This document shows positions 3,639 to 41,649 of a DNA stretch of 42,480 bases, one piece after another. The notes beneath the pieces were generated by a model, which was given only the letters and a program-made list of their open reading frames with translations, ran no database searches and was not told the DNA's origin. The first letter of the stretch is position 1; the number at the start of each line of letters is the position of its first letter. Source of the stretch: Sphaerochaeta sp. (GTDB lineage Bacteria > Spirochaetota > Spirochaetia > Sphaerochaetales > Sphaerochaetaceae); the NCBI GenBank assembly GCA_004294855.1, contig SHOI01000005.1:1-42480 (forward strand), given 5' to 3'. The translations under genes were made by a program, and so were the position numbers.

Positions 3639-3667
3639 TTGAACTTTAAAAGCCCTTGTTGTATGGT
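3639..3667 (+). promoter_or_regulatory. prs promoter, predicted leaderless
   Basis: TTGAAC (3639-3644), 17 bases, TATGGT (3662-3667), then 6 bases to the ATG at 3674. Transcription would begin at or next to the start codon. No Shine-Dalgarno is present. Confidence 0.55.
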
Positions 3668-3673
3668 TGGGCT

Positions 3674-4969
3674 ATGAGCATCATCAAACCGCAAAAGCTT
3701 GGAATCATATCGGGGCCGGGCTCGGAGTATTTTACCGGAAAAGTTGTCAAGCATCTTCGGAGGCTCTATTTGGAACGGTACTACAAGCTTTCCAGCGCTC
3801 TTGCCAAGCGGCACGGCATCAGCGAGGAGGAGATCCTTAAAACCGTCACCCTCACCGATGACCTTTCCAATAAACGGATTCCCCGCTCAAAGGCCCCCAC
3901 CACCTTCCAATGCCCCGATTTCACGATCAAGACGAAGTATGTGCGGTTTGCAAACGGTGAAGTGAAAGCCGAGATTCTCGATCCGGTGCGGGGTCTCAGG
4001 GTCTTCATCATCCATGACCTTTCGAACAATGAACCGGTGCGAGTCAGCGGATCCGACGAGCCCCTGAGGCTTACGATAAACGACCACTTGGTGTTTTTAT
4101 TGACCACGATCAATGCGCTCACTCTGGCCGGGGCGGATTCCGTAACGCTGGTCATTCCGACCTATCCCTATTCCCGCCAGCATAAAAAGAGCACGCGGGA
4201 AGCGCTGACCGCCTCGATGTTCGGCCGCATCTTCGAGATGCTTAAGGTCGAGCGGATCATCACGTTGGACATCCACTCCCGGGAGATCGAAAACTCCTTC
4301 GGACACCTTCATCTGGAGAACCTCCACGCGTCCTATCAGACGCTCATCGCTCTTCGCAAGCTCGTTGATTTCAGCGATCCGAATCTGGTGGTGGTCGCCC
4401 CGGATACGGGGGCGATCAGCCGGAACAAGTTCTACGCTCAGGCGCTCCACCGTCCGCTTGCGATGCTCTATAAGGAGCGCGATTACTCGGTGGTCAGCAA
4501 GGATGCCCGAAACTCCAACATCAAATCGATCAATCTGCTCGGAGATGTCAAAGGCAAGACCGTCCTGATCGCCGACGACATGCTGGCCACCGGCGGAACG
4601 ATGATCGTAGCGATGCGCGAGTTGACCAACCTCGGAGCGGAGAAGATCATCTGCATGGTCAGTCTTCCGTTTTTCAACGGAACCGCGGTGGAGGACTTCG
4701 ACCAAGCGTATAGAGAAGGCATCTTCTATCGGATCATCGGAACAAACGCCGTGACGCACGGCCGCGATCTGTTGGATAAAGAGTGGTACATCCAAGCGGA
4801 CATCACCGAGCTCTTTGCCCGGGTGATCAGCCGCCTTCATCACGGCCGCTCGATCAGCCCGCTGTTGGATAACCGCCGGTTCATCCAGATTCTCATCGAC
4901 AACACTCAAGCCAATCCAAAAGCTCCTCTTCCGGATGCTGCCGCTACCGACCCGGATCAAGAAGATTAA
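3674..4969 (+). CDS. prs: Ribose-phosphate pyrophosphokinase (PRPP synthetase), long form
   Basis: The enzyme makes PRPP from ribose 5-phosphate and ATP for nucleotide, histidine and tryptophan synthesis. It has 431 residues against about 310-320 for the usual enzyme. The extra length is mainly at the N-terminus: FANGE, equivalent to the ATP-site FxDGE normally near residue 35, is at 92-96. Further motifs are YPYSRQHKK (catalytic flexible loop, ~165-172), DIHSREIENSF (~199-209) and the PRPP-binding loop VLIADDMLATGGTM (297-310). I chose ATG 3674 over TTG 3656 because the predicted promoter ends six bases before it. A bulged hairpin spans the stop codon. The product PRPP is used by PyrE, encoded in this window. 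Confidence 0.9.
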   Translation: MSIIKPQKLGIISGPGSEYFTGKVVKHLRRLYLERYYKLSSALAKRHGISEEEILKTVTLTDDLSNKRIPRSKAPTTFQCPDFTIKTKYVRFANGEVKAEILDPVRGLRVFIIHDLSNNEPVRVSGSDEPLRLTINDHLVFLLTTINALTLAGADSVTLVIPTYPYSRQHKKSTREALTASMFGRIFEMLKVERIITLDIHSREIENSFGHLHLENLHASYQTLIALRKLVDFSDPNLVVVAPDTGAISRNKFYAQALHRPLAMLYKERDYSVVSKDARNSNIKSINLLGDVKGKTVLIADDMLATGGTMIVAMRELTNLGAEKIICMVSLPFFNGTAVEDFDQAYREGIFYRIIGTNAVTHGRDLLDKEWYIQADITELFARVISRLHHGRSISPLLDNRRFIQILIDNTQANPKAPLPDAAATDPDQED

Positions 4970-4983
4970 TCTTTGATCCGGGT
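4950..4983 (+). other. Hairpin spanning the prs stop codon
   Basis: ACCCGGATCAA (4950-4960) pairs perfectly with TTGATCCGGGT (4973-4983). The 12-base interior contains its own 10-base palindrome AGATTAATCT around the stop codon. No T-run follows, so it is not a standard terminator; it may stabilise the prs 3' end or reduce readthrough into the aminotransferase gene. Confidence 0.5.
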
Positions 4984-5037
4984 GAGTCAGCAGCCTCCCT
5001 TACGGGTGGTAACCATCATGCCATAGGAGTGACCATC

Positions 5038-6234
5038 ATGAAGATGTCCAACCGAATTTCATCATTTCAAGCTTCCCCGATCCGCCGGCTTTCGCCGTAT
5101 GCCCGTTCAGCCGTAAAGCGGGGGATCACCGTATATCACCTGAATATCGGCCAACCCGATATCAAGACTCCCCAAGTCGTTCTGGAAGCAATCCGGAGCT
5201 ACAACGAGCCGATCATCGCCTATGGATCCAGCGAAGGATATGAGCGCCTCCGGAACGCGCTTCCCGCCTATTACGCAACATATGGAGTGGATATCAAGCC
5301 GGAGGATATTTTGATTACCACCGGCGGGAGCGAAGCACTGCTCTTTACGCTGATGACACTCTGCGATCCGGGCGACCAGGTGATCATCCCCGAACCCTTT
5401 TATACGAACGTCTCCTCCTTTGCCCACTCGGCGATGGTTGAGCTTGTTCCGGTGACCAGCCGTCTGGAGGACGTATTCGCCCTTCCGCCGATGAATGATC
5501 TCGAGAAGCTCATCAACCCCAAGACAAAAGCGATTCTTCTGTGCAGTCCGAACAACCCGACCGGTCATGTGTATTCCAAAGAAGATCTGGAGCGAACTCT
5601 CCAACTCTGCAAGAAGCACGACATCTTTCTGGTCGTTGATGAAGTCTATCGGGAATTCTGCTATGACGGGGAACGGTTCACCTCGATCCTGACCTTTGAA
5701 GAGTACGCCGATCGGGTCGTTTGCGTCGATTCATTCTCCAAACGCTACTCGATGTGCGGAGCCCGGGTAGGGATGTTGGTGAGCCGAAACAAGCAGTTTC
5801 TTACCGATACGCTCAAACTCTCCCAAGCCCGGCTGTGTCCGCCGGATATCGAGCAGGTCGCCGCAACGGCGGCGTTGACCACCGATCCCTCCTATCTGGT
5901 CGAAGTCAAAAAGGAGTATGAAAGCAGGCGTAACTTCCTCATCAAGGCGCTCAAGAAGGTCGAAGGGGTGAAGACCACCAAGCCCAAGGGGGCGTTTTAC
6001 ATCATCGCCGAGCTTCCCGTTGAGGACGCCGAGGATTTCGCCACGTTCCTCCTCAGGGATTTCGATCTCAACGGAGAGACGGTGATGCTCGCCCCGGCGG
6101 AGGATTTCTATGCGACGAAAGGGATCGGTCGAAGGCAGGTGCGGATTGCGTATGTATTGAATAAAGAAGACCTCGGCAAGGCGGTTGCATGCCTCGCCGC
6201 CGGCTTGAAAGCATATGCTGAGAGAGGCGCTTAA
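5038..6234 (+). CDS. Class I aminotransferase (aspartate aminotransferase family)
   Basis: This is a PLP-dependent fold-type I aminotransferase of 398 residues. It carries CSPNNPTG (169-176), the PLP-ring aspartate in VVDEVYREF (D201), the Schiff-base lysine in [14 protein letters not shown] (K235) and a phosphate-binding arginine (R243). [10 protein letters not shown] near the C-terminus supplies the arginine that usually binds the substrate carboxylate. The family covers aspartate and aromatic amino acid aminotransferases; the donor cannot be set from sequence alone. ATG 5038 is preferred because AGGAG lies eight bases upstream; GTG 5029 and ATG 5044 are alternatives. It follows prs by 68 bases and may share its transcript. 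Its last four bases overlap yjbQ. Confidence 0.9.
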
Positions 6235-6650
6235 GAGCCGATGATCTTGATCAAGACTCGTTTATCGCGCAGTCCGTCAAATTCGTAATAGAAGATTTGC
6301 TCCCATGGGCCGAGGTCCAGTTTTCCACCGGTGATAGCGACGACTGTTTCCCGGCCCATGATCGTTCGCTTCAGGTGCGCATCAGCGTTCTTCTCCTTTT
6401 CCGTATTGTGCCGATAGCGCTCGTAGGGGAGCTCGGGGGCAAGTTCTTCAAGCCATTTTTCAAAATCTTCGTGGAGGCCTTCCTCCACGGAGTTGATGAA
6501 TACACTCGCTGTGATATTCATCGCATTGGCCAGAACAAGCCCTTCCTTGATTCCGCTTTCAGTGACCGCCTCACTAATCGCCTCGGTGATGTTGACCAGA
6601 CCTCGGCGTTTATTGAGGTGAAACCAAAGCTCTTTTCGATATGTCACCAT
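6231..6650 (-). CDS. YjbQ family protein (UPF0047)
   Basis: The 139-residue protein matches the small YjbQ/UPF0047 family: N-terminal [12 protein letters not shown], central [18 protein letters not shown], then [13 protein letters not shown] and the family hallmark [39 protein letters not shown] region. The family is conserved and has been linked to weak thiamin-phosphate synthase activity and metal or heme binding in some members; the physiological role is not settled. The start is ATG 6650 with AAGGAGG five bases upstream; a longer reading to 6839 is possible but lacks a Shine-Dalgarno and would run into the neighbouring promoter. It is divergent from the acidic protein gene. Confidence 0.88.
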
Positions 6651-6672
6651 ACAGGCCTCCTTCTGTACATCC

Positions 6673-6681
6673 AGTATATCA
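6673..6681 (-). promoter_or_regulatory. yjbQ promoter (extended -10)
   Basis: On the minus strand the extended -10 reads TG-A-TATACT, giving a ~15-base leader with AAGGAGG. Its upstream contacts must overlap the -35 box of the divergent gene at 6688-6693. Confidence 0.45.
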
Positions 6682-6687
6682 TGGAGT

Positions 6688-6716
6688 TTGTCACAAAACC
6701 TCAGGTATGCTATGCT
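6688..6716 (+). promoter_or_regulatory. Promoter of the acidic protein gene
   Basis: TTGTCA (6688-6693), 17 bases, TATGCT (6711-6716). Transcription near 6723 would give a 13-base leader made up mostly of the AGGAG Shine-Dalgarno (6724-6728) before GTG 6736. Confidence 0.5.
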
Positions 6717-6735
6717 TGGATTCAGGAGAGAAGGC

Positions 6736-9474
6736 GTGAAAACAAACGAGAGTTGGGATCTTAGTTCCGTTGGCGATATTTCAGCCCAAAAGATCCAACG
6801 GAACCTTCGCGAGCTCGCGGTTTTTTCAGCAAATTCCATTCGTTCCCTGAAAGAGACGGCGTTTCGATATGAGCCGATCGCATTGATGGAGCAAGCTCTT
6901 GAGCACTACCACCGAACCGTCATCAGGGAATGGAAAGGCGATGGTGAAGCGATTCGAATCTCAAAGGCGCTTATCTCCTATCTTGCGAATCTTCTACAGT
7001 CTTTTTCAAAGCCGCTTTCAAAGAACAGGCAGGTCAAACAAAAGGATTGGAAAGATATCGTTCGACTCTTTGATGACATTGTCCGCAAATCGATCCGCAT
7101 CGTGGATAATACCGCTCTTGCCCTGAAGGCGGATGGAACGCTGACCGATCCGATCCTGCTTGAGCGCTTTCAAAAGGAGGCGAGCGCATGGGTGCTGCCT
7201 CCGTTGGTCGATGAAGAGCTCTTGAAACGGCACCATCGCTCTCTGCTCTATCAGCTTCAACCCTACAACGCCCTGATCAGTGAAGTGTTTCCATCTCACC
7301 TCGACGGAGTGCTTCAGGCATTGTCGACCCTGATCGAAACGGACGAGCATGACCTGTTGAACCATACCGCGCTCAGTGAAGCGGATGCCAAGGTGCTGGC
7401 TCGTCCGATCGCAAGCGAAGAGTTTCGAGTCGACAACCATCGCCTCACGCAGTTCCAACAATCCTCGCTCAAGCCCTTCATACTCATCAACGGCTCCTAT
7501 TACTGCTTCGATCCCGAACGAGTCCTCATCGAAGGCTATGGAATCATCAAAGGGGCGGTGACCACCTCAAGCGGCGAGCGTAAAGAGGCGTGGGAGAGGA
7601 TTGAGAAAGAGAAGCGGAGCCTGCTTTCGGTCACCTTCTTCACCGCAATGCTTTCTTCGATGCACTACACGAGAAAGGTGGAGTATAAGGACGGTTTTCT
7701 GGACGCCCTCTTCGAAGATGGGAAGAAGGAGCTGGTGATCCAGATTCCCGCCGCCCACACCGTCTTTCCCGAGGATCCGATCCAAGAAAGCGCTGCCTAT
7801 GCTCGGGCGTTGATCGAAGAACAGAAGGCGATCGACTTGGCGAAAACCCATCCCGCCCCCTCGGTCATCATCGATTTGAGGGCAATCAAGAGCTATCCGG
7901 TAACATTGATTGATAACGCGCTCACCCTTTCCTTCCTTCAGGTGGCGGCGTTGGCGACAACGTGGGAGGGGGCCAACGAGATCAAAGGTGAGCTGGGCCT
8001 GCTGCCGCTTGGTGATCTTACGCCGCCTCCCCGCGATAAAGAGCCGGAAGAACAATTGGAAGCTGAACAGCCGAAAGCCGGGCAAACAGATGATGAACAT
8101 GATCCGATGAAGGAGTTTGACGAGCATCTGGAAGACGAGCTGGAATGGGAAGAAGAGGAAGATGAAGATTCCTTTGACGATGATGAAATCCTGGAAGAAG
8201 AGCTCAGCGCGATCGATGAGGAAGATGAGTACGAAGATGATCTTGAAGAGTTTGAAGGTGATGAGCAGGATGAATATACCGCGATCTTTGAGGATGATGA
8301 ATACGAAGGCGAAGCTCCCGAACCGGTAGAGGAAGGAAAGGAGGAGCCGGAATTCACCTTGGAAGCGGAAGTCGATTCCTCCTGGCAGCGTTTTGATCAA
8401 GGGTTCACTCTGGGAATCAAGGATCCCCGGATCATCGAAGGGGAATACCTCGACTACGCAGATGAAGAAGGCGAGGAAGAGGAGGATGACTGGGCGTACA
8501 GCGGATCATCCTACTTTACTTCCGCAAACCCCTTGGAAGACTATCTGGGTGAAGACGAGTACGAGACCGCCGATGAACTGTTCAGCCAAAGCGAACAGCC
8601 GGTTCTCTTCGACGTGGAGGATGAACGGATGTTCGATCCTTTTTATCGCACCGACCTTGAGCGGCAAGCCGTTGAAGAGGATTACGAAAGCGAAGCCATC
8701 GGGCTTTTTGAGTATGAAAGCGAAGAGAGCGGATATGACGAAGAGGAGGTTCTTGTACCGTCATCATTTGTCCTTGCCGATGAAGAGATGGAGGAAGGCA
8801 AGGAAGACCTGCTTCGCTACCACACCCAGTATGTCGAGGATGACGATGGAGACGAATTCGGTTTCTTGGATCAGATCCAAAGGAGCGCCGAACAGCAAAA
8901 ACGCCCCTCTTCCCGTTTCACTTTGATCAACGCGGTCGAACATGCGAAACATCAACCCCCTCCTCAAGAGGAAGAAGATAAAAAAGCTCCTCCAGCCCCA
9001 CCGCCGGCAGCAAAACAGGCTTCCGTTGAACCGTTTGAGTTGGATCTGCCGCCGAACCTCAGTGAAATCTTCACCCTTCTTGCAAAAAAGAATCAGTGGT
9101 CCTTCAATACCTACCTCAAAGAAAGCATGGCTCATGAGATCGATTCACTGGAGCGAATGCTCCAACAGATTCGGGACACGACTCTCGAACCGGGGCAGGA
9201 TCGGATGTTCACGATCGTCCCCATGGAGCTGACCATTATTGTTTTGGCGGCGAAAGGGGATCCGCTCAGCACGTGGACGCGAAAAGTAAACGTTGCCGCC
9301 CTGATGCACGCCAACAAAAAACGCTCCTGGCGCGCCCTTTCGATCGGATACGACCGAAAGAGAAATTTGGTGTTTGCCGATGATTGCCCGATCAGGCGGG
9401 AAGATTTTACAGCAACGGATTGGAAGTTTGTAATCAATGCGGCGAATCGGCTGCGGGATAAAAAGCGAGTATAG
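6736..9474 (+). CDS. Large acidic protein of unknown function
   Basis: I do not recognise this 912-residue protein. It has three parts. Residues 1-430 are globular and mostly helical. Within them E316-Y-K-D-G-F-L-D323-ALF followed by ELVIQIPA resembles the central strands of PD-(D/E)XK nuclease folds, but QIP stands where ExK is expected, so a relationship would mean an inactive site; this is inference. Residues ~435-720 form a very acidic, Glu/Asp-rich, low-complexity stretch with recurrent aromatic residues, probably disordered. After a short Pro/Gln/Lys linker, residues ~745-912 form a second globular domain. No signal peptide or membrane segment is visible. The GTG start is chosen because AGGAG lies seven bases upstream. 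The inositol-phosphatase gene starts eight bases after the stop, so they are probably cotranscribed. Confidence 0.85.
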
Positions 9475-9481
9475 AGAGCAT

Positions 9482-10258
9482 ATGAAGACCCACTTGGATG
9501 TTGCCCTTCAGGCAGCTCGCAGAGCAGGCTCCTACGCCTTGGGAGCGGAGCGGAACGGAGCGATCTCCGTTCGGATGAAAGAGGCGAACGATTACGTCAC
9601 CGATGTCGATATCCAGATCGAACAGCTGATCAAAGACACGATCCGGCTATCCTTTCCTCATGATGGAATATTCGGTGAAGAAGGCGGTGAAAGCGGAAAC
9701 CTTCAATCCAACCGCTGGGTGATCGATCCGATCGACGGAACGACGAATTTCTTTCGGGGGATGCCCAACTACACGATCTCAATCGCATGGGAGGAGGAAC
9801 CATTCCACCCGCTGGTCGGGGTCGTCTTCAACCCCCGTCACAATGAATTGTTCTGGGCGGCAAAAGGGCAGGGAGCGTTTCTGAACGGGCAGAAGATCAC
9901 CGTCTCCTCCGTCCGGGAGCTGAATCAGGCGATCGTGGTGCTGGTTCCGCCTCACCGCAGGCGCGACCTCGCCGATTCCTACTTTGAAACGATGAACACG
10001 ATCTTCAAAGCCACCAGCGATATCCGCTCCTTCGGATCCTGCGCCTTGGAGCTTTCCTACATCGCAAGCGGACGGGTCGACGGATACTATGAACGGGCGC
10101 TGGGCTACTACGATATGGCAGCGGGGATGATCATTCTTCAGGAAGCGGGGGGAATCGTCACCCCGGCGTTTGAAGATGCTCCTTTCAGCGACCACTCTTG
10201 TGACATCCTCGCTTCAAACGGGCACCTTCATCGAGCTTTGAGCTCCTTGATCGCTTGA
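9482..10258 (+). CDS. Inositol-monophosphatase family protein
   Basis: The 258-residue protein has the Mg-dependent sugar-phosphatase fold. Metal ligands are visible in GEEGGE (E66/E67), WVIDPIDGTTNF (D82, D85, with G86-T88) and GYYDMAAG (D211). Family members hydrolyse inositol 1-phosphate, fructose 1,6-bisphosphate, PAP or related compounds, and SuhB also acts in rRNA transcription complexes; the sequence alone does not choose among these. ATG 9482 lies eight bases beyond the stop of the acidic protein gene, with only a weak AGAG before it, which suggests translational coupling. A reading from 9437 would overlap the upstream gene and add a non-homologous tail. Confidence 0.9.
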   Translation: MKTHLDVALQAARRAGSYALGAERNGAISVRMKEANDYVTDVDIQIEQLIKDTIRLSFPHDGIFGEEGGESGNLQSNRWVIDPIDGTTNFFRGMPNYTISIAWEEEPFHPLVGVVFNPRHNELFWAAKGQGAFLNGQKITVSSVRELNQAIVVLVPPHRRRDLADSYFETMNTIFKATSDIRSFGSCALELSYIASGRVDGYYERALGYYDMAAGMIILQEAGGIVTPAFEDAPFSDHSCDILASNGHLHRALSSLIA

Positions 10259-10283
10259 TGAAACCGTTTCTTTCCCGTAGGGT
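10255..10283 (+). promoter_or_regulatory. HAD gene promoter, predicted leaderless
   Basis: TTGATG (10255-10260), 17 bases, TAGGGT (10278-10283), then 6 bases to ATG 10290. There is no Shine-Dalgarno. The -35 overlaps the stop codon of the upstream gene. Confidence 0.5.
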
Positions 10284-10289
10284 CTTTGC

Positions 10290-10931
10290 ATGAAGTTCAA
10301 GCTGGCCATCTTTGATTTCGACGGGACGATCATGGATACCTCCCCGGGTATCTTCGCAACCGCGAATGCGACGATTGAAAGCCTCGGGTTGGAGCCGGAG
10401 AAGGATCCCTCGGTCCTCGCCCGGTTCGTCGGCCCGCCGATCCGCGAGTCCTTCGTCGCGGTGTACAACCTCGATGAATCCCTCCTTGATGAGGCGGTTA
10501 CGCGATATCGGGCGATCTACGACCGGACGGGACGCTTCGGAGCCGAACTGTATCCGGGTATCAACCGGATGCTCGCCGCGCTGAAGGCTGCCGGCTACCG
10601 CCTCGCGGTCGCGACCCTGAAGTCGGAACCGGTGGTGAAGCAGATGACCGACCACTTCGGTCTCACCCCCTATTTCGATTCGATCCGCGGCAGCGATCCG
10701 ATCCATAAAAGGAGCAAGGCGGCGGTCATCCATCAGGTCTTGGAGGATTTGCAAATAAAAGCGGAAGAAGCGGTCCTCATCGGAGACACCCCACACGATG
10801 AGGAGGGAGCCGGGGAAGCGGGCAGCGCCTTCATCGCCGTCGATTGGGGATTCGGCTTTCCCAAAGGATATCGAGCATCATCGACCATGGTAGCTGAAAG
10901 CCCGCTTAATGTATTAACGTTCCTCTTGTAA
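10290..10931 (+). CDS. HAD-superfamily hydrolase, phosphoglycolate phosphatase-like
   Basis: This 213-residue protein is a HAD phosphatase with an alpha-helical cap of the Gph/PgmB type. Motif I is FDFDGTIMD (nucleophile D9, acid/base D11), motif II is ATLKSE near residue 110, a lysine for motif III follows in IHKRSKAAV, and motif IV is LIGDTPHDEEGA. It resembles phosphoglycolate phosphatases, but substrate prediction in this family is weak. The start is an ATG six bases after a predicted -10, without a Shine-Dalgarno. A second HAD protein of the same class is encoded at 26988. Confidence 0.88.
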   Translation: MKFKLAIFDFDGTIMDTSPGIFATANATIESLGLEPEKDPSVLARFVGPPIRESFVAVYNLDESLLDEAVTRYRAIYDRTGRFGAELYPGINRMLAALKAAGYRLAVATLKSEPVVKQMTDHFGLTPYFDSIRGSDPIHKRSKAAVIHQVLEDLQIKAEEAVLIGDTPHDEEGAGEAGSAFIAVDWGFGFPKGYRASSTMVAESPLNVLTFLL

Positions 10932-10954
10932 GAGGCTTTGGGCCTCGATATGGT
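10926..10954 (+). promoter_or_regulatory. ridA-gcvT operon promoter
   Basis: TTGTAA (10926-10931), 17 bases, TATGGT (10949-10954). The predicted start near 10961 leaves a 15-base leader that begins with AAGGAG (10962-10967). Confidence 0.5.
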
Positions 10955-10975
10955 AGAGGTTAAGGAGATTATGTA

Positions 10976-11371
10976 ATGTCGTTTCAAGTAACAAAGAGTG
11001 AAGTTGCCACCCCGAACGCCCCGAAAGCGATCGGACCGTACAGTCAGGCGGTCAGTGCCGGATCCTTCGTATTCACCAGCGGAGTGCTGCCGGTCGACCC
11101 GAAAACCGGCAAGCTCGTGGAGGGCGGAATCGTCGAACACACCAAACAGGTGTTCGAGAACCTCAAAGCGATCCTAAAGGAGGCGGGTACGAGTCTCTCC
11201 AATGCGGTAAAGACCACGGTCTTCATCGCCAGCATGAAGGATTTCGCAGCGATGAATGAAGTCTACGCCTCCTATCTGGGAGACGGGGTGAAGCCGAGCC
11301 GATCAACGGTGGAAATTCCAAACCTCGCCCTCGGTGCATTGGTCGAAATCGAGATGATCGTGCTCCGGTAG
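10976..11371 (+). CDS. ridA: RidA family enamine/imine deaminase
   Basis: RidA hydrolyses reactive enamine and imine intermediates, such as 2-aminoacrylate, released by PLP enzymes. The 131-residue protein is of normal length and shows APKAIGPYSQAV, FTSGVLPVDP, the NLKAILKEAG helix, and PSRSTVEI with the conserved arginine that binds the substrate carboxylate. AAGGAG precedes the ATG by eight bases. It heads an operon with gcvT nine bases downstream. That pairing is sensible: the glycine/serine metabolism served by GcvT is a source and target of aminoacrylate damage. This last link is inference. Confidence 0.94.
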   Translation: MSFQVTKSEVATPNAPKAIGPYSQAVSAGSFVFTSGVLPVDPKTGKLVEGGIVEHTKQVFENLKAILKEAGTSLSNAVKTTVFIASMKDFAAMNEVYASYLGDGVKPSRSTVEIPNLALGALVEIEMIVLR

Positions 11372-14653: not shown

Positions 14654-15110
14654 AATCCGCCCGTTCTCCGTCGACGGAACGAAGCAGATCGGTCGGATCG
14701 AGCCGGACCTGCATTCCCCGTTTGCCGGCGCTGACGTAGATGAAGGGAAGGCTGAACGCCGCCTCTTCGATGAAGGTGGGAAAGGGGCGTTTCATCCCGA
14801 TCGGGGAACAGCCGCCGCGCAGGTATCCGGTGACGTTCTGAATCTCGGTGAGCTTCACCAGCTCCAAAGCTTTGCTGCCGGTGAGGGAGCGGGCTTTTTT
14901 CATGTTTATCGATCGATCCGCCGGAAGGCAGAATACCCAATACTGCTTCCGTTCATTGACGAGGACAATCGTTTTAAACACCGTTTTCGGGTCCAAGCCC
15001 ACGGTCTGGGCGGCATGAATCGCATCAAGCGCTTCCTCATCAAAGCGGTAGGAAACAAGTTCAAAGGGAATCTTCCCAGCCTCCAGGATTCTCATTGCAT
15101 TTGTTTTCAT
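14646..15110 (-). CDS. ybaK: YbaK/EbsC family aminoacyl-tRNA deacylase
   Basis: This 154-residue protein is a stand-alone editing domain related to the ProRS INS domain; YbaK hydrolyses Cys-tRNA(Pro). It begins MKTNAMRILEAGKIPFELVSY as in the family and has VFKTIVLVNERKQYWVFCLPADRSINMKKA, which contains the conserved lysine region, and GYLRGGCSPIGMKRPFPTFIEE with the GxSPxG substrate loop. The ATG has no Shine-Dalgarno; it stands six bases after a predicted -10. A long dyad covers the promoter. Its 3' end overlaps the convergent membrane protein gene. Confidence 0.93.
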   Translation of the reverse strand: MKTNAMRILEAGKIPFELVSYRFDEEALDAIHAAQTVGLDPKTVFKTIVLVNERKQYWVFCLPADRSINMKKARSLTGSKALELVKLTEIQNVTGYLRGGCSPIGMKRPFPTFIEEAAFSLPFIYVSAGKRGMQVRLDPTDLLRSVDGERADFT

Positions 15111-15116
15111 GCTAGC

Positions 15117-15145
15117 ATCCTAGCCGGGAAGCCGCTTCGAATCAA
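15117..15145 (-). promoter_or_regulatory. ybaK promoter, predicted leaderless
   Basis: Minus strand: TTGATT (15140-15145), 17 bases, TAGGAT (15117-15122), then 6 bases to the ATG at 15110. No Shine-Dalgarno. Confidence 0.55.
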
Positions 15146-26951: not shown

Positions 26952-26981
26952 TTGACTATGAGCGCACGGGTCATCAATAAT
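26952..26981 (+). promoter_or_regulatory. HAD-pgm operon promoter, predicted leaderless
   Basis: TTGACT (26952-26957), 18 bases, AATAAT (26976-26981), then 6 bases to ATG 26988. Confidence 0.5.
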
Positions 26982-26987
26982 AGCCGT

Positions 26988-27656
26988 ATGGCTACAAAGA
27001 TTAAAGCAATACTGTTTGATTTGGATGGGACGCTCATCGATACGATTGAAGACATCGCTGCGGCGTTCAGCGCCGCAATCGCCAAGGACGGGTTGGAGCC
27101 GGCTACGGTAGAGGAAACAAAACTCGTAGTGGGGCGGGGATTGGTAAACGCGTTGAAAGGGTTGCTGGAGATTCGTAATCATCCTGTGAGCGAAGAACGC
27201 TTTACCGAACTGTTTCACGTTTTGTACACCTATTATGAAGAACATCCGGTGGTATATTCAAAACCGTTCGATGGGATGATTGAATTGGTCAGCGGTTTGC
27301 AGGATACTTACCAACTGGGAGTCATCTCCAACAAAGACCATGAGCTGACCCTCAGGATCGTATCGGAATTGATGGGCGATGTCCCGTGGAGCGTCATTCG
27401 GGGGATGAACGACGAATATCCCCGAAAACCCGATGTTGGTGCATTCACTCCTTTTGTGAAAAAGATGGATTTGGGGCTTGAAGAAATGTTGCTCATCGGT
27501 GACAGTGAAGTAGATTACCAAAGTGCGAGGGGGGCGAACATGGATGTAATCCTTGTTTCGTGGGGATTCAGACCGCGCGAAGCCCTTGTTGCTCTTGAAG
27601 GGGCTTGTGTTGTTGATTCGGTTGAAGAGCTGAAGGAGGCGATTTATGCGTTATAA
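26988..27656 (+). CDS. HAD-superfamily hydrolase, phosphoglycolate phosphatase-like
   Basis: The 222-residue protein is another Gph/PgmB-type HAD phosphatase: motif I LFDLDGTLIDT (D11, D13), motif II VISNKDHE, a lysine in YPRKPDVGAF for motif III, and motif IV LIGDSEVDYQSARGANM. It lies directly upstream of a phosphohexomutase gene that starts inside its last eleven bases. That suggests a sugar-phosphate substrate rather than strictly phosphoglycolate; this is inference. ATG 26988 was chosen over an in-frame ATG at 26940 because the latter lies before the promoter. Confidence 0.88.
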   Translation: MATKIKAILFDLDGTLIDTIEDIAAAFSAAIAKDGLEPATVEETKLVVGRGLVNALKGLLEIRNHPVSEERFTELFHVLYTYYEEHPVVYSKPFDGMIELVSGLQDTYQLGVISNKDHELTLRIVSELMGDVPWSVIRGMNDEYPRKPDVGAFTPFVKKMDLGLEEMLLIGDSEVDYQSARGANMDVILVSWGFRPREALVALEGACVVDSVEELKEAIYAL

Positions 27657-34715: not shown

Positions 34716-34727
34716 CGTCCGGCAATC

Positions 34728-34756
34728 TTGGAGAAGACTCGTGAATTCTGTACAAT
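34728..34756 (+). promoter_or_regulatory. tyrA-like gene promoter, predicted leaderless
   Basis: TTGGAG (34728-34733), 17 bases, TACAAT (34751-34756), then 7 bases to ATG 34764. Confidence 0.55.
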
Positions 34757-34763
34757 ACCCTTC

Positions 34764-35513
34764 ATGAGTGAAAAGAATCGGGTTGGAGTATATGGTCTTG
34801 GGCGCTTCGGGCTCTTTTGGGCGACCCGGCTTGCCGAGAAGGGGTTTGAGGTCGTCGGCTGCAGCCGGCGGACCGTGGAGCTGCCGCCGAATGTCCGCCA
34901 AGTGAGCGTCGAAGAGGTGTTGGATTCTCCGACCGTTTTTTATTGTGTCTCGATCAGCGCGTTCGAAGAGGTTCTTGCCAACAGCTTGCCCTATCTGAAG
35001 GAAGGGGCGGTCGTCATGGACACCTGTTCGGTAAAGCTGTATCCCGCCTTCGTGATGAAGCGCCTCCTGCCTCCGACGATCCAGGCGATCGCGACCCACC
35101 CGATGTTCGGTCCGGATTCGGGAAAGGACGGACTGGAAGGACTGCCCTTCGTCATGGACAATGTCAGTGCTCACGAAGAGACCTGGCGATGGTGGGTGGA
35201 TGAGTTCACCTCGTGGAAGATGGATGTGCTTATGATGAGCTGTGACCAGCACGACCGTGAAGCGGCGTGGAGCCAGGGAATCACCCACTTCATCGGCCGA
35301 ACGCTTGCCGAGCTGAATCTGGGATCGACCCGCTTGGCGACCAAAGGGTACCAGACCCTCATGGGGGTGGTGGAGCAGACGTGCAACGACCCCTTGCAGC
35401 TCTTTTATGATCTGCAGCGGTACAATCCCTACACGAAGCAGATGCGGATGGGCCTGCGGGGAGCGCTGGTGACGACGATGGAGGCGCTGAAGGAGCAGGA
35501 GGAGATCCTTTGA
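34764..35513 (+). CDS. Prephenate/arogenate dehydrogenase-like protein
   Basis: The 249-residue protein has an N-terminal NAD(P)-binding Rossmann fold (VYGLGRFGLFWA, residues 9-20) and the family signature THPMFGPDSG (H112). It then has an all-helical C-terminal domain (HDREAAWSQGITHFIGRTL). Prephenate dehydrogenase makes 4-hydroxyphenylpyruvate for tyrosine. No chorismate mutase or ACT domain is present, so it is shorter than many TyrA proteins, and its exact substrate could be arogenate. ATG 34764 follows from the promoter. It overlaps mtaB by four bases (TTGA). Confidence 0.85.
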   Translation: MSEKNRVGVYGLGRFGLFWATRLAEKGFEVVGCSRRTVELPPNVRQVSVEEVLDSPTVFYCVSISAFEEVLANSLPYLKEGAVVMDTCSVKLYPAFVMKRLLPPTIQAIATHPMFGPDSGKDGLEGLPFVMDNVSAHEETWRWWVDEFTSWKMDVLMMSCDQHDREAAWSQGITHFIGRTLAELNLGSTRLATKGYQTLMGVVEQTCNDPLQLFYDLQRYNPYTKQMRMGLRGALVTTMEALKEQEEIL

Positions 35514-36811: not shown

Positions 36812-37712
36812 TCTCCCGCTTGCGGATCTCCGGCTCGCCGATCGTTACCAAGGTATTGGGAGCGACCGATTCCTTGATCCACACGTTCGATCCGATCGTC
36901 GTTCCCCGCCCAATCGTGATGTCCCCGAGAACCGTGGCGTTGGCGTAGATCGTTACATCGTCTTCAATCGTCGGGTGGCGCTTCGCCCCCTTGATCAGAG
37001 CCCCGCACGCATCACGGGGGAAGGAGAGCGCTCCGAGGGTCACCCCCTGATAGATTTTCACGTTGCTTCCGATGACCGTCGTCTCGCCGATGACCGTTCC
37101 CGTGCCGTGGTCGATGAAGAAGGAGGAACCGATTTGGGCTCCGGGGTGGATGTCGATTCCCGTTTGCGCATGGGCGTATTCACTCATCATCCGCGGAATG
37201 ATCGGGACGTCGAGGCGGTAGAGCTCATGGGCAACCCGGTGGATCGTCAGGCTTTTGATGCACGGGTAGGAGAGGATGACCTCCCGGATGTTTCGGGCGG
37301 CCGGGTCGCCTTCGTAGGCGGCCTGAGCATCGGCTTTCAGGCTGAGCCGGATCGAGGGGAAGCGGGAAGCGACGCTTCGAACCGCCCGGTCGCTTCTCTC
37401 CTCCGCCGCTTCAGAGCCGAGCGTTTCATCATCGTAGCGGAAGGCGAGGTAGAGCTGGCCTTTGAGGTGGCTGGTGACCACATCCATCTGATAGGCCAGA
37501 TATTCCTCCAAATCCATTCTGGCCTGCTCCCTTCCGCACCGTCCCGGGAAGAAGAGTTCCAGCAATTCGTCGCAGAGCTGGCCGACGATTTCCATTCGCG
37601 GCAGCGGCTTCAGGCCGTGAAAGTTCGCCTTCCCGGCGATCCGGTCGAAGGTCTTCAGAAATGAAGGGATGAATACGGTTGAGTCAAACGGATGATCTTT
37701 GCATGGTTCCAT
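36795..37712 (-). CDS. cysE: Serine O-acetyltransferase
   Basis: The enzyme acetylates L-serine with acetyl-CoA to give O-acetylserine for cysteine synthesis. The 305-residue protein has the helical N-terminal domain (RNIREVILSYPCIKSLTIHRVAHELY) followed by a left-handed beta-helix of hexapeptide repeats: GIDIHPGAQIGSSFFIDHGTGTVIGET with the catalytic histidine, then VKIYQGVTLGALSFP and HPTIEDDVTIYANATVLGDITIG. The extended form resembles EpsC-type serine acetyltransferases. ATG 37712 is taken because a promoter ends seven bases upstream; the longer frame to 37889 runs through bioY. No cysteine synthase is nearby. Confidence 0.92.
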   Translation of the reverse strand: MEPCKDHPFDSTVFIPSFLKTFDRIAGKANFHGLKPLPRMEIVGQLCDELLELFFPGRCGREQARMDLEEYLAYQMDVVTSHLKGQLYLAFRYDDETLGSEAAEERSDRAVRSVASRFPSIRLSLKADAQAAYEGDPAARNIREVILSYPCIKSLTIHRVAHELYRLDVPIIPRMMSEYAHAQTGIDIHPGAQIGSSFFIDHGTGTVIGETTVIGSNVKIYQGVTLGALSFPRDACGALIKGAKRHPTIEDDVTIYANATVLGDITIGRGTTIGSNVWIKESVAPNTLVTIGEPEIRKREIKKSQ

Positions 37713-37719
37713 GACCAAC

Positions 37720-37749
37720 AGCTTACGGGTTCTCGCTCCCTTTAGGCAA
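37720..37749 (-). promoter_or_regulatory. cysE promoter, predicted leaderless
   Basis: Minus strand: TTGCCT (37744-37749), 18 bases, TAAGCT (37720-37725), then 7 bases to ATG 37712. The -35 lies inside the end of bioY. Confidence 0.45.
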
Positions 37750-37758
37750 GAAGGGAGC
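37735..37758 (-). other. Hairpin over the bioY stop codon
   Basis: Two perfect 8-base arms (37735-37742 and 37751-37758; GCTCCCTT and AAGGGAGC) flank an 8-base loop. The bioY stop lies across the loop and one arm, and the cysE -35 in the loop and arm. No T-run follows on the minus strand, so it is not a classical terminator; it may mark the bioY 3' end. Confidence 0.45.
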
Positions 37759-38257
37759 GCACCCGTTCTGAAAAACGCCGAGCGAGGGCGATCGCCAATC
37801 CCAGCTTGATCCCGTCCCCGACCAGGAAGGGAAGCATTCCCACTGCAATTGCCTGAGAAAGGGAGATCGAGAGAAGATGCTTGAGCCACGATACTCCCCC
37901 GAGATAGATCACGGCTGTTGCCAGCAGGCCAAAGAGGACCATCCTCCAGATCCGCTTAAAGCCCCCGAAGCCGGCAATCAGGGCTGCGGGAAGCAGCGCA
38001 AGGAGGTAGCCTCCGGTCGGCCCGAACAGCAGGGCGAAACCGCCGCCGCCGCTGAAGACCGGCAGGCCGATCGCACCGAGGAAAAGATAGATGCCGACGC
38101 TCATGAGGGCGACCTCTGGTCCTCCCATATACCCGGCAAGCAGCACGAAGAGGGTCTGCAGGGTGATCGGAACCGGCGGAAGCGGAATCCGGATAAAGGA
38201 TCCGACGATGATGAGGGCGGTGAAAAAGGCGACAAGGAGGATTCGGCGTTCGTTCAT
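37742..38257 (-). CDS. bioY: Biotin transporter substrate-binding component BioY
   Basis: BioY is the S component of the biotin ECF transporter, able to take up biotin with or without an energising module. The 171-residue protein has six membrane helices and the family marks IRIPLPPVPITLQTLFVLLAGYMGG and GLPVFSGGGGFALLFGPTGGYLLAL. No bioM/bioN genes are adjacent. ATG 38257 lies six bases after a predicted -10; a longer frame to 38323 would cross the operator. It is divergent from birA, and a BirA-like dyad lies between them, which fits control of uptake by the biotin ligase. Confidence 0.93.
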   Translation of the reverse strand: MNERRILLVAFFTALIIVGSFIRIPLPPVPITLQTLFVLLAGYMGGPEVALMSVGIYLFLGAIGLPVFSGGGGFALLFGPTGGYLLALLPAALIAGFGGFKRIWRMVLFGLLATAVIYLGGVSWLKHLLSISLSQAIAVGMLPFLVGDGIKLGLAIALARRFSERVRSLLA

Positions 38258-38263
38258 GGCGGG

Positions 38264-38293
38264 ACGATAGCACAAAGACCGGCAGGTTGTAAA
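38264..38293 (-). promoter_or_regulatory. bioY promoter, predicted leaderless
   Basis: Minus strand: TTTACA (38288-38293), 18 bases, TATCGT (38264-38269), then 6 bases to ATG 38257. The -35 is inside the left arm of the BirA-like dyad. Confidence 0.5.
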
Positions 38294-38311
38294 CCATAAC
38301 AAGGTTGACAA
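38287..38311. promoter_or_regulatory. Probable BirA operator between bioY and birA
   Basis: TTGTAAACC (38287-38295) and GGTTGACAA (38303-38311) are inverted halves differing at one position. Each resembles the half-site TTGTAAACC of known BirA operators. The spacer is seven bases, whereas the operators I know have about 14-16. The dyad contains the -35 of both divergent genes, so one bound repressor could silence both. Confidence 0.6.
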
Positions 38312-38333
38312 TGGTACAATCACTTTTTATGCT
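38305..38333 (+). promoter_or_regulatory. birA promoter, predicted leaderless
   Basis: Consensus TTGACA (38305-38310), 17 bases, TATGCT (38328-38333), then 6 bases to ATG 38340. No Shine-Dalgarno. Confidence 0.65.
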
Positions 38334-38339
38334 CATCGT

Positions 38340-39296
38340 ATGAGCAGAAAAACAGAGGTGCTTGCCCGTCTCCAACAAGCTTTGAATCCGGTATCGGGGG
38401 AGAGGATCGCCTCCGATCTGTCAATCTCCCGAGCTGCGGTGTGGAAAGCGATTGAGGGTCTGAGAAAGGATGGATATCTCATCGAGGGTGTTCCCAATCA
38501 GGGGTATCGGCTTTCTTCGGTTCAACCGCTGCTTAACCAATCCAAGCTCTTCTCCCTTCTGCCTTCCTATCGAATTGAGGGAGTCGATATGATCGATTCG
38601 ACCAACAGCGAGCTGAAGCGGCAAAACCCCAGAGTGAAGACCCTCCTCTTCGCCAACACACAAAGCGGCGGACGGGGAAGGCTCGGCAGGTCGTTCTTCT
38701 CTCCGCGGGGAGGGGTGTATTTCAGTCTGGCTCTTCCCTTGAACGTGAGCATCGATTCCGCATTGCTCGTCACCTCGATCGCTGCGGTGGCCACAGCGGA
38801 GGCATTGAGCGAAATTGCTCATGTCGAGACCTCGATCAAATGGGTGAACGATCTGTATCTGGGGGACAAAAAACTCTGTGGCATCCTGACCGAAGGGATC
38901 ATCTCGATGGAAACGAAGACGCTTGCGACGGTGATCATCGGCATCGGGATAAACCTTCATCTGCCGATCGATCAATTCCCTGCCGAGCTGCAGGCGATCG
39001 CTACCAGCGCCTTTGACGGCGGACGGCCGCTCTCGATCGACCCGAACCGTCTTGTGCAGGGAATCGTCACCAACATTGAACGATTGATTGAAGACCTGCC
39101 CGATCGTTCCTTTCTGGAGATCTACCGAAGAAGAAGCAACCTCATCGGAAAAACCGTTCAGGTCCATGAAGGCGTTCATTCCCATCCGGCCCGGGTTCTT
39201 GGAATCGATGATGACGCCCATCTGCTGATCGCCGATGAAACGGGAAGGACCCGCAGCCTTTCAAGCGGAGAAGTCAGCATTCGCCTTGAAGGGTAG
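38340..39296 (+). CDS. birA: Bifunctional biotin-protein ligase / biotin operon repressor
   Basis: BirA attaches biotin to carboxylase carrier domains, and its biotinyl-AMP form represses transcription. The 318-residue protein starts with a winged helix (GERIASDLSISRAAVWKAIEGLRKDGY, 20-46; GYRLSS wing). The catalytic domain has IDSTNSE, SGGRGRLGRSFFSPRGG (GGRGR at 110-114) and KWVNDLYLGDKKLCGILTE with the active lysine; an SH3-like C-terminal domain follows (GKTVQVHEG, LSSGEVSIR). The DNA-binding domain makes it a group II ligase, matching the dyad beside its promoter. The start is leaderless by prediction. argS follows after 39 bases with its own promoter. Confidence 0.95.
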   Translation: MSRKTEVLARLQQALNPVSGERIASDLSISRAAVWKAIEGLRKDGYLIEGVPNQGYRLSSVQPLLNQSKLFSLLPSYRIEGVDMIDSTNSELKRQNPRVKTLLFANTQSGGRGRLGRSFFSPRGGVYFSLALPLNVSIDSALLVTSIAAVATAEALSEIAHVETSIKWVNDLYLGDKKLCGILTEGIISMETKTLATVIIGIGINLHLPIDQFPAELQAIATSAFDGGRPLSIDPNRLVQGIVTNIERLIEDLPDRSFLEIYRRRSNLIGKTVQVHEGVHSHPARVLGIDDDAHLLIADETGRTRSLSSGEVSIRLEG

Positions 39297-39315
39297 GGAG
39301 CCTTTATTGTAGGAT
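39286..39315 (+). promoter_or_regulatory. argS promoter
   Basis: TTGAAG (39286-39291), 18 bases, TAGGAT (39310-39315). The predicted leader of about 14 bases carries AGAAGGAAG before ATG 39336. The -35 lies in the last codons of birA. Confidence 0.45.
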
Positions 39316-39335
39316 GCTTCCAGAAGGAAGATACG

Positions 39336-41063
39336 ATGCTCAGAGCAATACGCGCGGGTTGGAAAGCCCGCATTGAAGAAGAATTATACAAGATTGCTGA
39401 AACGAACGGGAAGGTGAGCCTTCCCGAACTGATCGTTCAGACGCCCCCCAAGGTTGAACTCGGGGATATCGCGTTTCCCCTTTTCGCCCAGGCGAAGGTC
39501 TTGGGGATGAGCCCGCCGGCGCTGGCAAATGAACTGAAGAACCGCTTGGATGCCCAAGAACTCCTCGTTTCCGGTCCGTACCTCAACGTCCGAATCGACA
39601 TGAACGCCCTTGCCCTCGATCTGACGAAGGCGATCAGGAAAGAAGGTGATGCCTACGGTCACAACAGAACGCTCGGTGGAAAGCGAATAGTCGTCGAGTT
39701 CTCCTGTCCCAACACGAACAAACCGCTCCACCTCGGGCATCTGCGCAACGACTCGATCGGCGAGTCGATCTCGGCGATTCTCAAGGCGAACGGAGCGGAG
39801 GTTCGGAAGGTCAATTTGATCAACAACCGCGGGGTGCACATCTGCAAGTCGATGCTTGCCTATCAGAAGTTCGGCAACGGGGAGACCCCCGAGTCCACCG
39901 GGAAAAAGGGCGATCACTTCGTCGGAGACTACTACGTCCTCTACAACCGGAAGGCCGAAGAAGATCCTTCGCTGGAGGGGCAGGCTCAGGCGATGCTCAA
40001 GGCATGGGAGGACGGGGATGAAGAGGTCGTTGCTCTTTGGGAGAAGATGAACCGATGGACGCTGGAAGGCCTTTCCCAAAGCTATGAGCGGATGAGGGTG
40101 AGCTTCGACCACTACTACTATGAATCGGAAACCTATCGCTACGGCAGGGATGAGGTCCTCAAAGGGGTCGAGCAGGGGGTCTTCTATCGGGAAGCCGACA
40201 ACTCGGTGTGGGTGGACTTGGAAGCGATCGGTCTGGATAAGAAAGTGCTGCTTCGCAGTGACGGCACGTCATTGTATATGACTCAGGATCTGGGGACGGC
40301 GATCCGGCGATATGAGGATTGGTTCTTCGACTCGATGATCTACGTTGTCGCCAGCGAGCAGCAGTACCATTTCAAAGTCCTCTTCCATGCCCTCGGCCTG
40401 CTTGGCTATCCGTGGGCGAAGGATTTGCACCATCTCTCCTACGGGATGGTGAACCTGCCCGACGGGAAGATGAAGAGCCGGGAAGGGAAGGTAGTCGACG
40501 GGGATGATTTGGTTGAAGAGCTTACCCTCCTGGCAAAGGAGGAGATCATCGCCAAGGAACGGGAGGAGCTTGTCGGCGATCTTGAAGAAACGAGTCTCTC
40601 GATCGCCCTCGGAGCCTTGAACTACTATCTGCTCCAAGTCTCTCCCACGAAGGACATGATCTTCAATCCCGCCGAATCGATCTCCTTCAACGGGAATACC
40701 GGTCCCTATCTCCAATACATGGGGGCTCGGATCAGCAGCATGCTTGCCAAGTATGAGCAGGAGATTCCCGCCTCCTTCGACGCGAGCGTCCTCACCTTGG
40801 AGGATGAGCGCTCCCTGATCCGCCAGCTTGCGCTCTTCGGCGAGGTGGTCGAGCGCGCCGCCGAGGGGTATGATCCCTCCCAGATCACCGCCTATCTCTA
40901 CGAACTGAGTAGGACGTTCAGCCGGTGGTACCATGACAATCCGGTGCTCAAGGCGTCCACGCCCGCCCTTGTCGAAGCGCGGGTGGTTCTCTCTTCAAAT
41001 GTCCTTCAGGTCCTGAAAAACGCGTTTGCTTTGGTCGGAATCCCCTTCCTCGCTGCTATGTAG
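39336..41063 (+). CDS. argS: Arginyl-tRNA synthetase
   Basis: ArgRS charges tRNA(Arg). The 575-residue class I enzyme has the N-terminal Add-1 domain (GWKARIEEELYKIA...LGDIAFPLFAQAKVLG), the HIGH motif as HLGH (132-135) in CPNTNKPLHLGHLRND, and the KMSKS equivalent KMKSREGK (378-385). The C-terminal DALR anticodon-binding domain (YLYELSRTFSRWYHDNPVL) is complete. A clear AAGGAAG precedes the ATG. The final eight bases overlap the convergent tetR gene. Confidence 0.95.
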   Translation: MLRAIRAGWKARIEEELYKIAETNGKVSLPELIVQTPPKVELGDIAFPLFAQAKVLGMSPPALANELKNRLDAQELLVSGPYLNVRIDMNALALDLTKAIRKEGDAYGHNRTLGGKRIVVEFSCPNTNKPLHLGHLRNDSIGESISAILKANGAEVRKVNLINNRGVHICKSMLAYQKFGNGETPESTGKKGDHFVGDYYVLYNRKAEEDPSLEGQAQAMLKAWEDGDEEVVALWEKMNRWTLEGLSQSYERMRVSFDHYYYESETYRYGRDEVLKGVEQGVFYREADNSVWVDLEAIGLDKKVLLRSDGTSLYMTQDLGTAIRRYEDWFFDSMIYVVASEQQYHFKVLFHALGLLGYPWAKDLHHLSYGMVNLPDGKMKSREGKVVDGDDLVEELTLLAKEEIIAKEREELVGDLEETSLSIALGALNYYLLQVSPTKDMIFNPAESISFNGNTGPYLQYMGARISSMLAKYEQEIPASFDASVLTLEDERSLIRQLALFGEVVERAAEGYDPSQITAYLYELSRTFSRWYHDNPVLKASTPALVEARVVLSSNVLQVLKNAFALVGIPFLAAM

Positions 41064-41613
41064 GGGCATAGTGGGTACAGAAACGACGAATGAATCGCTC
41101 GGCTTGGTAGCGAATCTCTTCATCGGTAAGGAGCGTTCGAACCAGATGTCGAGCGATTGTTGCACTGAATGTTTCAATCGCCAATTCAAGATCGTCGATC
41201 CGGAGCTTTCCCCGCTCTTCAAGATGTTCGATCAGCACGGAGCTTTGGGCGATGAGCATCTCATCGAAGGTCTGCTTGATCGTCCGTGCCTGCCCGTTTG
41301 TCCATGATTCCTGTTCGACGATCCGGTAGAAGGAGGAGAGCGGCTCGGTTTCATAGAGCTCGCTCCAGTGGTCGAGGGCTCGAAGAAGGACTTCTTCGAC
41401 GCTTCCCTCCAGATCGATCGTCCTCATCCGTTTCAGCGCCAGGCGATGGCAATAGGCGAATACCTCTTCGATCAGATGGGCTCGGCCGGTGAAGTGGTGG
41501 AAGATCGTCGCTTTGCTGATTCCATTTTCATTTGCCAGCCGACTCAAGCTGACATTGCCAAGTCCCTGCTCACTGGCCAGAGAAAGCATGCTGAGAATCA
41601 ATTGTTCCTTCAC
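41056..41613 (-). CDS. TetR/AcrR family transcriptional regulator
   Basis: The 185-residue protein has the TetR N-terminal helix-turn-helix (VSLSRLANENGISKATIFHHF, about residues 21-41) and a helical ligand-binding and dimerisation domain. The GTG start has no Shine-Dalgarno and stands six bases after the -10. A palindrome in its promoter predicts self-repression. The divergent rplU gene is a housekeeping ribosomal operon, so the regulator's other target is probably elsewhere. The 3' end overlaps argS. Confidence 0.88.
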   Translation of the reverse strand: MKEQLILSMLSLASEQGLGNVSLSRLANENGISKATIFHHFTGRAHLIEEVFAYCHRLALKRMRTIDLEGSVEEVLLRALDHWSELYETEPLSSFYRIVEQESWTNGQARTIKQTFDEMLIAQSSVLIEHLEERGKLRIDDLELAIETFSATIARHLVRTLLTDEEIRYQAERFIRRFCTHYAPT

Positions 41614-41619
41614 AGGCGC

Positions 41620-41649
41620 ATATTAACCGACCGTTCGGTAGGGAGTCAA
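41620..41649 (-). promoter_or_regulatory. tetR promoter, predicted leaderless
   Basis: Minus strand: TTGACT (41644-41649), 18 bases, TAATAT (41620-41625), then 6 bases to GTG 41613. The palindrome at 41626-41639 fills most of the spacer. Confidence 0.5.
41626..41639. promoter_or_regulatory. Probable TetR operator
   Basis: ACCGACCGTTCGGT is a 14-base palindrome with one mismatched pair and looks like typical TetR/AcrR operators (ACCGA...TCGGT). It occupies the -10/-35 spacer of the regulator's own promoter, so binding should block RNA polymerase. Confidence 0.65.

Follow-up and report, generated by a model that had tools for sequence, protein, structure and literature searches.

The DNA analyzed here (hereafter the window) is a contig of 42,480 bases from an incomplete Sphaerochaeta metagenome-assembled genome (G000; 2.2 Mb, 87% complete), whose genus is shared by 17 other genomes among the 100 family genomes searched. 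Its argS product has 94% identity to the one from a 'Spirochaetales bacterium' metagenome-assembled genome and about 70% to those in records named Sphaerochaeta. Nine of its genes, namely prs, two genes for HAD hydrolases (with starts at 10290 and 26988), ybaK, a tyrA-like gene, a cysE-like gene, bioY, birA and tetR, are preceded by sigma-70-type promoters that are predicted to give leaderless mRNAs. A -35 and -10 pair was present at all nine genes with a spacer of 17 or 18 bases, and the -10 ended 7 bases before the start codon in the tyrA-like and cysE-like genes and 6 bases before it in the others (Table 1). The nine units were all found as a preliminary description of the window had given them, and its remark that they have no Shine-Dalgarno (SD) sequence was also borne out, as none was seen upstream of the nine genes other than the -10 itself (the -10 of ybaK, TAGGAT, holds AGGA at SD distance). 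The -35 of the HAD gene at 10290 overlaps the 3' end of the upstream gene. The -10 of the HAD gene at 26988 is weaker, and many relatives have GATAAT.

Promoters were evaluated with a full score that required a -35 in addition to the -10, with a threshold of 8. The window test covered 32 starts (the nine genes and 23 others) from 37 frames, five of which were left out. Nine of the 32 starts reached a score of 8 at 6 or 7 bases, and these were exactly the nine named genes. By comparison, 500 dinucleotide-preserving shuffles of the same upstream DNA gave a mean of 0.07 such starts and a maximum of 2. A shuffled control had been suggested in the preliminary description, as had a count of -10-to-start distances beyond the window, which is given below. 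The spacing profile of the window alone with mechanically called starts was too small to decide the matter. A search of the window against Rfam at gathering thresholds gave no match.

Table 1. Promoter elements and start codons of the genes discussed. Genus rows give the orthologues in the genus that have the promoter at 6 or 7 bases, except where a gap is stated.
Gene	Span (strand)	-35	-10	Gap to start (bases)	Start	Genus rows
prs	3639..3676 (+)	TTGAAC 3639-3644	TATGGT 3662-3667	6	ATG 3674	22/22, own copy included
HAD hydrolase	10255..10292 (+)	TTGATG 10255-10260	TAGGGT 10278-10283	6	ATG 10290	22/22, own copy included
ybaK (tRNA_edit domain)	15108..15145 (-)	TTGATT 15140-15145	TAGGAT 15117-15122	6	ATG 15110	21/22, own copy included
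second HAD hydrolase	26952..26990 (+)	TTGACT 26952-26957	AATAAT 26976-26981	6	ATG 26988	20/22, own copy included
tyrA-like (PDH_N)	34728..34766 (+)	TTGGAG 34728-34733	TACAAT 34751-34756	7	ATG 34764	10/10, all gap 7
cysE-like (Hexapep)	37710..37749 (-)	TTGCCT 37744-37749	TAAGCT 37720-37725	7	ATG 37712	11/11
bioY	38255..38293 (-)	TTTACA 38288-38293	TATCGT 38264-38269	6	ATG 38257	21/21, own copy included
birA	38305..38342 (+)	TTGACA 38305-38310	TATGCT 38328-38333	6	ATG 38340	19/21, own copy included
tetR	41611..41649 (-)	TTGACT 41644-41649	TAATAT 41620-41625	6	GTG 41613	gap 6 in 3/23, gap 5 in 20/23, own copy included
argH, leadered	418..470 (+)	418-423	441-446	21, containing AGAGGAAAC	ATG 468	
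gene 6736, leadered	6688..6738 (+)	6688-6693	6711-6716	19, with AGGAG	GTG 6736	
ridA, leadered	10926..10978 (+)	10926-10931	10949-10954	21, with AAGGAG	ATG 10976	
argS, leadered	39286..39338 (+)	39286-39291	39310-39315	20, with AAGGAA	ATG 39336	
nptA-like	3569..3609 (-)	TTTACC 3604-3609	TAGGGT 3581-3586	9 (predicted leader 2-3 bases)	ATG 3571	

Spacing and conservation in the genus

The distance from -10 to start was counted in stretches of G000, in 800 kb of G002, a complete genome from within the genus, in 400 kb of a genome of a sister genus (G022) and, as controls, in 200 kb of E. coli and 150 kb of a D. deserti plasmid, the latter a positive control. Genes were called by script, with starts picked from coding content and start codon only. 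Genes without a called upstream neighbour, or lying less than 70 bases (count of TANNNT alone) or 110 bases (full score) from the end of a stretch, were excluded, as were contigs masked as N from the TANNNT count. Genes were classed as unit-first-like or operon-internal, and those lying 20-39 bases from a neighbour on the same strand were put in neither class.

Counting TANNNT alone at 6-7 bases, 23 of 133 unit-first-like genes in G000 (4.6-6.6 expected from other spacings) and 32 of 365 in G002 (9.4-14.7 expected) had the element. The D. deserti positive control gave 9/82 (0.4-0.9 expected), and there was no spike in E. coli (1/109, with 2.6-4.9 expected). By the full score, with any candidate start within 45 bases allowed to compete, the numbers at 6-7 bases were 26/133 in G000 and 41 counts, from 40 distinct genes, among 365 in G002, against expectations of 2.5 and 5.1 from neighbouring spacings and of 5.7 and 11.8 from spacings 18-40. 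Operon-internal genes were at 1/108 and 2/232 in the two genomes, and E. coli at 0/109. The full-score profile showed promoters to be scarce at about 8-13 bases and commoner from about 15-19 bases onward. The proposed count thus gave a sharp peak at 6-7 bases in both Sphaerochaeta genomes that was absent in E. coli.

The stretches from G000 were biased by how they were chosen: 14 of the 40 were picked since pattern matches fell on their contigs, and the window itself had been picked in the preliminary description. Stretches not picked by pattern contained 3 leaderless-like genes among 23, and the picked ones, minus the seven pattern-match genes, 10 among 85. G002 was sampled at even steps, which gives a less biased estimate, and for this reason we used it to estimate that about one in ten unit-first-like Sphaerochaeta genes is predicted to be leaderless. 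SD-like tetramers occurred in 3 of the 26 leaderless candidates of G000 and in 1 of the 40 of G002, and the start codon was ATG in 63 of the 66 candidates versus 158 of 174 SD-led genes.

Orthologues of the nine genes were compared across the genus after the exclusion of rows with duplicate upstream DNA, with an alignment starting after residue 25 (40 for the nptA-like gene) or without a start codon; the window's own copy was counted in seven of the nine sets, tyrA and cysE being the exceptions. A promoter at 6 or 7 bases was found in 149 of the 174 distinct rows, and the same rows gave 1, 8, 6 and 2 at the control spacings of 3-4, 9-10, 11-12 and 13-14 bases, respectively. Seven rows of the HAD gene at 26988 scored at 9-10 bases as well. 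If tetR is counted at 5 bases, the total becomes 169 of 174. Mean identity over the nine genes peaked at the -35 (about -36 to -31) and at the -10 (-12 to -7), and was low in mid-spacer and at -5 to -2. The spacing from -10 to start was gene-specific, being 5-6 bases for tetR, 6 for prs, 7 for tyrA and 8-9 for the nptA-like gene. Genome-wide pattern counts agreed in direction: in 26 genomes of the genus, TTG-N20-TANNNT-N6-ATG occurred 1994 times versus 570 for the same pattern with N12, and the N6 form was the commoner in all 26. Together, the genome-wide peak, the shuffled and operon-internal controls and the conservation in the genus supported the proposal in the preliminary description of two classes of promoter placement, one of them with predicted leaderless mRNAs.

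Predicted leaderless transcripts and the alternatives

Transcription from a sigma-70 promoter usually starts about 7 bases downstream of the -10, and leaderless mRNAs are translated by 70S ribosomes with initiator tRNA. At the nine genes, the initiation point would fall on the first base of the start codon (gap of 6) or one base before it (gap of 7). The mRNAs would begin with 5'-AUG (or GUG) without an SD, and ribosomes would start on their bare 5' ends. This mode would be used beside a leadered class, in which the -10 lies further upstream with an SD in between. We consider it highly probable (about 0.88) that the nine genes are served by sigma-70-type promoters giving leaderless mRNAs. The position of the motifs, their more-than-chance frequency, their conservation and the absence of an SD were all observed, and from these we infer the RNA 5' ends and leaderless translation. 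A pyrimidine at -1 was found in 59 of the 66 leaderless candidates and in 132 of 174 SD-led genes (P 0.02, pooled), which is weakly in line with a transcription start site at the start codon.

Several results weigh against this reading. The -1 pyrimidine is only modestly enriched, and the difference was not significant in the single genomes (P 0.11 and 0.18). The promoter of tetR lies at 5 bases in 20 of 23 rows and so misses the strict 6-7 rule. SD-like tetramers were present at SD distance in 10 of 22 ybaK orthologues, at least partly within the -10 TAGGAT. In the sister genus, TANNNT alone showed no clear spike over the far background (9/199, with 5.6-9.3 expected), and the full score gave a weak peak (9/199, with 2.4-3.5 expected). 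The stricter full score detected only 2 of 82 genes in D. deserti and is therefore not general. With mechanical starts, 63/133 unit-first-like genes in G000 and 195/365 in G002 had neither a start-adjacent promoter nor a strict SD tetramer; the two classes therefore do not cover all genes. In G002, two of the 40 candidates have the same upstream DNA and are equally long, as expected of duplicates of a single IS66-type transposase gene, and the one of them that was scanned was an IS66 transposase. Lastly, an upstream promoter with a leadered mRNA is compatible with the sequence at every one of the nine genes.

That last point is what favours the best-surviving alternative, in which upstream promoters chiefly serve these genes through leadered mRNAs lacking an SD, and the start-adjacent promoters are minor. 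We regard this as improbable, given that the columns conserved across the genus are the -35 and -10 of the start-adjacent promoters, and that the intergenic region between bioY and birA, only 82 bases long, contains both promoters.

Less probable still is that the start codons were misjudged, with translation from a later in-frame codon and hence ordinary leaders inside the called frames. Later in-frame starts do exist, as the mechanical caller placed ybaK at 15095 and birA at 38439, and alignments start at residue 18-19 in many birA rows and at residue 4-6 in most rows of the HAD gene at 26988. Against this, the HAD_2 match starts at residue 7 in the HAD protein from 10290 and at residue 8 in that from 26988, HTH_11 starts at residue 3 of BirA, and alignments run from residue 1 or 2 in most rows of prs, the HAD gene at 10290 and ybaK and in the best rows of cysE, bioY and tetR. 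No possible start codon precedes the called one in the frames of the HAD gene at 10290, ybaK, birA and tetR. For prs, the tyrA-like gene, cysE, bioY and the HAD gene at 26988 an earlier in-frame start codon exists, upstream of or within the promoter. tetR starts with GTG in the window and with ATG in the nearest relative; among the 22 rows listed, 10 begin five codons further upstream than the gene in the window does, with the -10 directly before that earlier ATG.

It is very unlikely that TANNNT is an AT-rich or SD-like translation element just before the start and not a -10. Some of the -10s (TAGGAT, TAGGGT) do look like weak SDs at the right distance, and parts of one paper discuss an AT-rich bias before starts as possibly S1-related (PMC5397173). 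However, a -35 hexamer at 17-18 bases is conserved together with TANNNT, and no peak was seen in operon-internal genes, where signals for translation are needed but a promoter is not. Chance motifs in AT-rich upstream DNA are a practically negligible explanation even though the window is small and its cases were chosen in the preliminary description, as chance is countered by the shuffling result (0.07 vs 9/32), the sharp spacing peak and the conservation.

Leaderless genes in Spirochaetota

Among rows from outside the genus, those with a promoter at 5-7 bases numbered 5/9 for tyrA, 4/13 for cysE, 4/6 for bioY, 7/9 for birA and 5/5 for tetR. Seven of the 13 outside-genus rows of cysE have an SD without such a promoter, so that this gene appears to have switched. 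In 120 Spirochaetota genomes, the template TTGACA-N17/18-TANNNT-N6-ATG matched 907 times versus 335 per spacing for N10-14, a 2.7-fold enrichment, and 100 of the 120 exceeded their own shifted-spacing control. The shifted spacings were added to a control that read the pattern backward, which was too lenient; in one genome (G202) backward matches outnumbered forward ones, 30 vs 8. There was no excess of the template in several families, among them f5, f22, f24, f33 and f37; in f5 (three genomes of 1.0-1.5 Mb) there were no matches versus 14 summed over the five control spacings. In another family (f14) there were 227 matches in 17 genomes, and many among the matches listed were near-consensus TTGACA/TATAAT pairs 6 bases before ATG.

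A broader interpretation of the sequence comparisons, to which we would give even chances, is that the Spirochaetota share leaderless expression as an ancient mode, and that it is not a curiosity of Leptospira. Under it, the gene-specific spacing would be under selection, some families would have lost the template, and some genes, cysE among them, would have switched between leaderless and SD-led forms across genera. Several units would also pack an operator, both divergent -35s and both start codons into fewer than 100 bases, so that transcription control and the start of translation would share one element.

Leaderless initiation had been thought undescribed in this type of organism in the preliminary description. 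This view did not hold, and leaderless genes in Spirochaetes are not new: a 2011 survey predicted them in 6 of 18 Spirochaetes genomes, and a 2017 study mapped them in Leptospira. In the consulted portion of the former survey (Zheng 2011; PMC3160421), the mean per genome was 3.9% (1.8-6.9); that portion draws on RefSeq of 2010 and gives per-genome percentages, with no Spirochaetes genus named and no orthologue conservation. The latter study, a dRNA-seq analysis of Leptospira interrogans, reports in the sections consulted that for about 440 genes a primary start site lies no more than 10 nt from the start codon, and that for 184 and 170 genes, at 30 and 37 C respectively, it lies exactly there; energy and defence classes were underrepresented (PMC5243855). 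The only promoter motif identified in those sections was that of sigma-54 (PMC5243855). Leptospira and Sphaerochaeta belong to the same phylum, but the start sites were mapped in the former and are predicted from sequence here, and a clear -35/-10 marks the leaderless class of Sphaerochaeta whereas, in the same sections, no motif but sigma-54 was identified in Leptospira.

In Deinococcus-Thermus, according to excerpts of a further study, a -10 (TANNNT) adjacent to the open reading frame (ORF) gives leaderless mRNA for about 30% of ORFs on average, and the -10 alone suffices, with the -35 enhancing (PMC12340547). Sphaerochaeta resembles that group, as represented in those excerpts, in having a TANNNT -10 a few bases before the ORF, and differs in that only about a tenth of its unit-first-like genes are in the predicted class and that these are recognised with a -35. 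GeneMarkS-2 predicted leaderless transcription in 21.6% of bacterial species (as cited in PMC9581028); in the main text of the citing paper no word begins with spiroch. Among the papers listed by searches of the open-licence PMC literature, we found no report of leaderless genes in Sphaerochaeta. Sphaerochaeta would be a further case of a known minority mode in bacteria.

The analysis yields a sharp list of genes that are predicted to be leaderless, in a spirochaete genus that has named strains and in which the spacing of each gene can be traced through evolution. It opens the questions of why prs, bioY/birA, the HAD genes and ybaK keep the mode, how genes like cysE switch between leaderless and SD-led starts, and why some spirochaete clades are without the template. 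It also bears on annotation, in that gene finders reliant on the SD can misplace such starts.

Leadered genes, functions and compact promoter arrangements

The preliminary description had counted about ten leadered units with an SD. This stood for argH, gene 6736, ridA and argS, each of which has a good promoter with the -10 19-21 bases before the start and an SD-like stretch in between. For the wza-like gene, pyr (21223), rplU, HD and pta, no promoter scored 8 at 0-21 bases (the best was pyr, 6.9 at 9 bases); an SD-like stretch was seen by eye in the wza-like gene, rplU and pta. The nptA-like gene, for which a leader of 2-5 bases had been proposed, has a predicted leader of 2-3 bases. Among its orthologues, 8 or 9 bases was among the scoring spacings in 20/20 rows, the window's own copy included, and 11 rows scored at another spacing too. 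It has a third promoter placement beside the leaderless-type and leadered ones.

A functional division had also been proposed, with regulators and small metabolic genes dominating the leaderless set and translation genes having leaders. A Pfam scan (E 1e-8) in G002 took in 30 genes from the 40 leaderless candidates and 20 from the 130 that are SD-led. The leaderless sample contained one regulator (GntR), many enzymes and transporters, MutL, RNase H, the IS66 transposase and two translation-related genes (for a tRNA-synt_2-domain protein and an S30AE protein), with five genes lacking a match. The SD-led sample contained one regulator (FUR), a GlnRS/GluRS-type synthetase and an RF-1 family protein, with two genes lacking a match. 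Protein lengths in leaderless and SD-led genes were alike, with medians of 289.5 vs 303 residues in G002 (P 0.95) and 313 vs 359 in G000, neither difference being significant. With regulators at 1/30 vs 1/20 and translation genes in both samples, the functional split was not borne out, in samples too small to exclude a modest bias.

Some of the promoters lie in compact arrangements. The bioY-birA intergenic region (38258-38339, 82 bases) holds two divergent leaderless-type promoters whose -35s sit in TTGTAAAC (38287-38294) and GTTGACAA (38304-38311); these form an inverted pair with a gap of 9 bases. Similar inverted pairs were seen by eye at bioY-birA in several relatives. From its sequence the pair looks like a candidate BirA operator, with a gap that is presumably shorter than in other bacteria. 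The spacer of the tetR promoter contains a near-palindrome, ACCGACCGTTCGGT (41626-41639), a similar sequence being visible by eye in many relatives, and this is probably the autoregulatory operator. At 37720-37760, where the cysE promoter overlaps the 3' end of bioY, inspection by eye places the -35 of cysE within the loop of a GCTCCCTT/AAGGGAGC hairpin, which was present in the window and its nearest relative and not in the other rows listed. A further compact divergent pair occurs in G002 (L206:15282-18120), where a gene whose product has LonB-like AAA and Lon_C domains and its divergent neighbour have overlapping leaderless-type promoters, with starts 52 bases apart.

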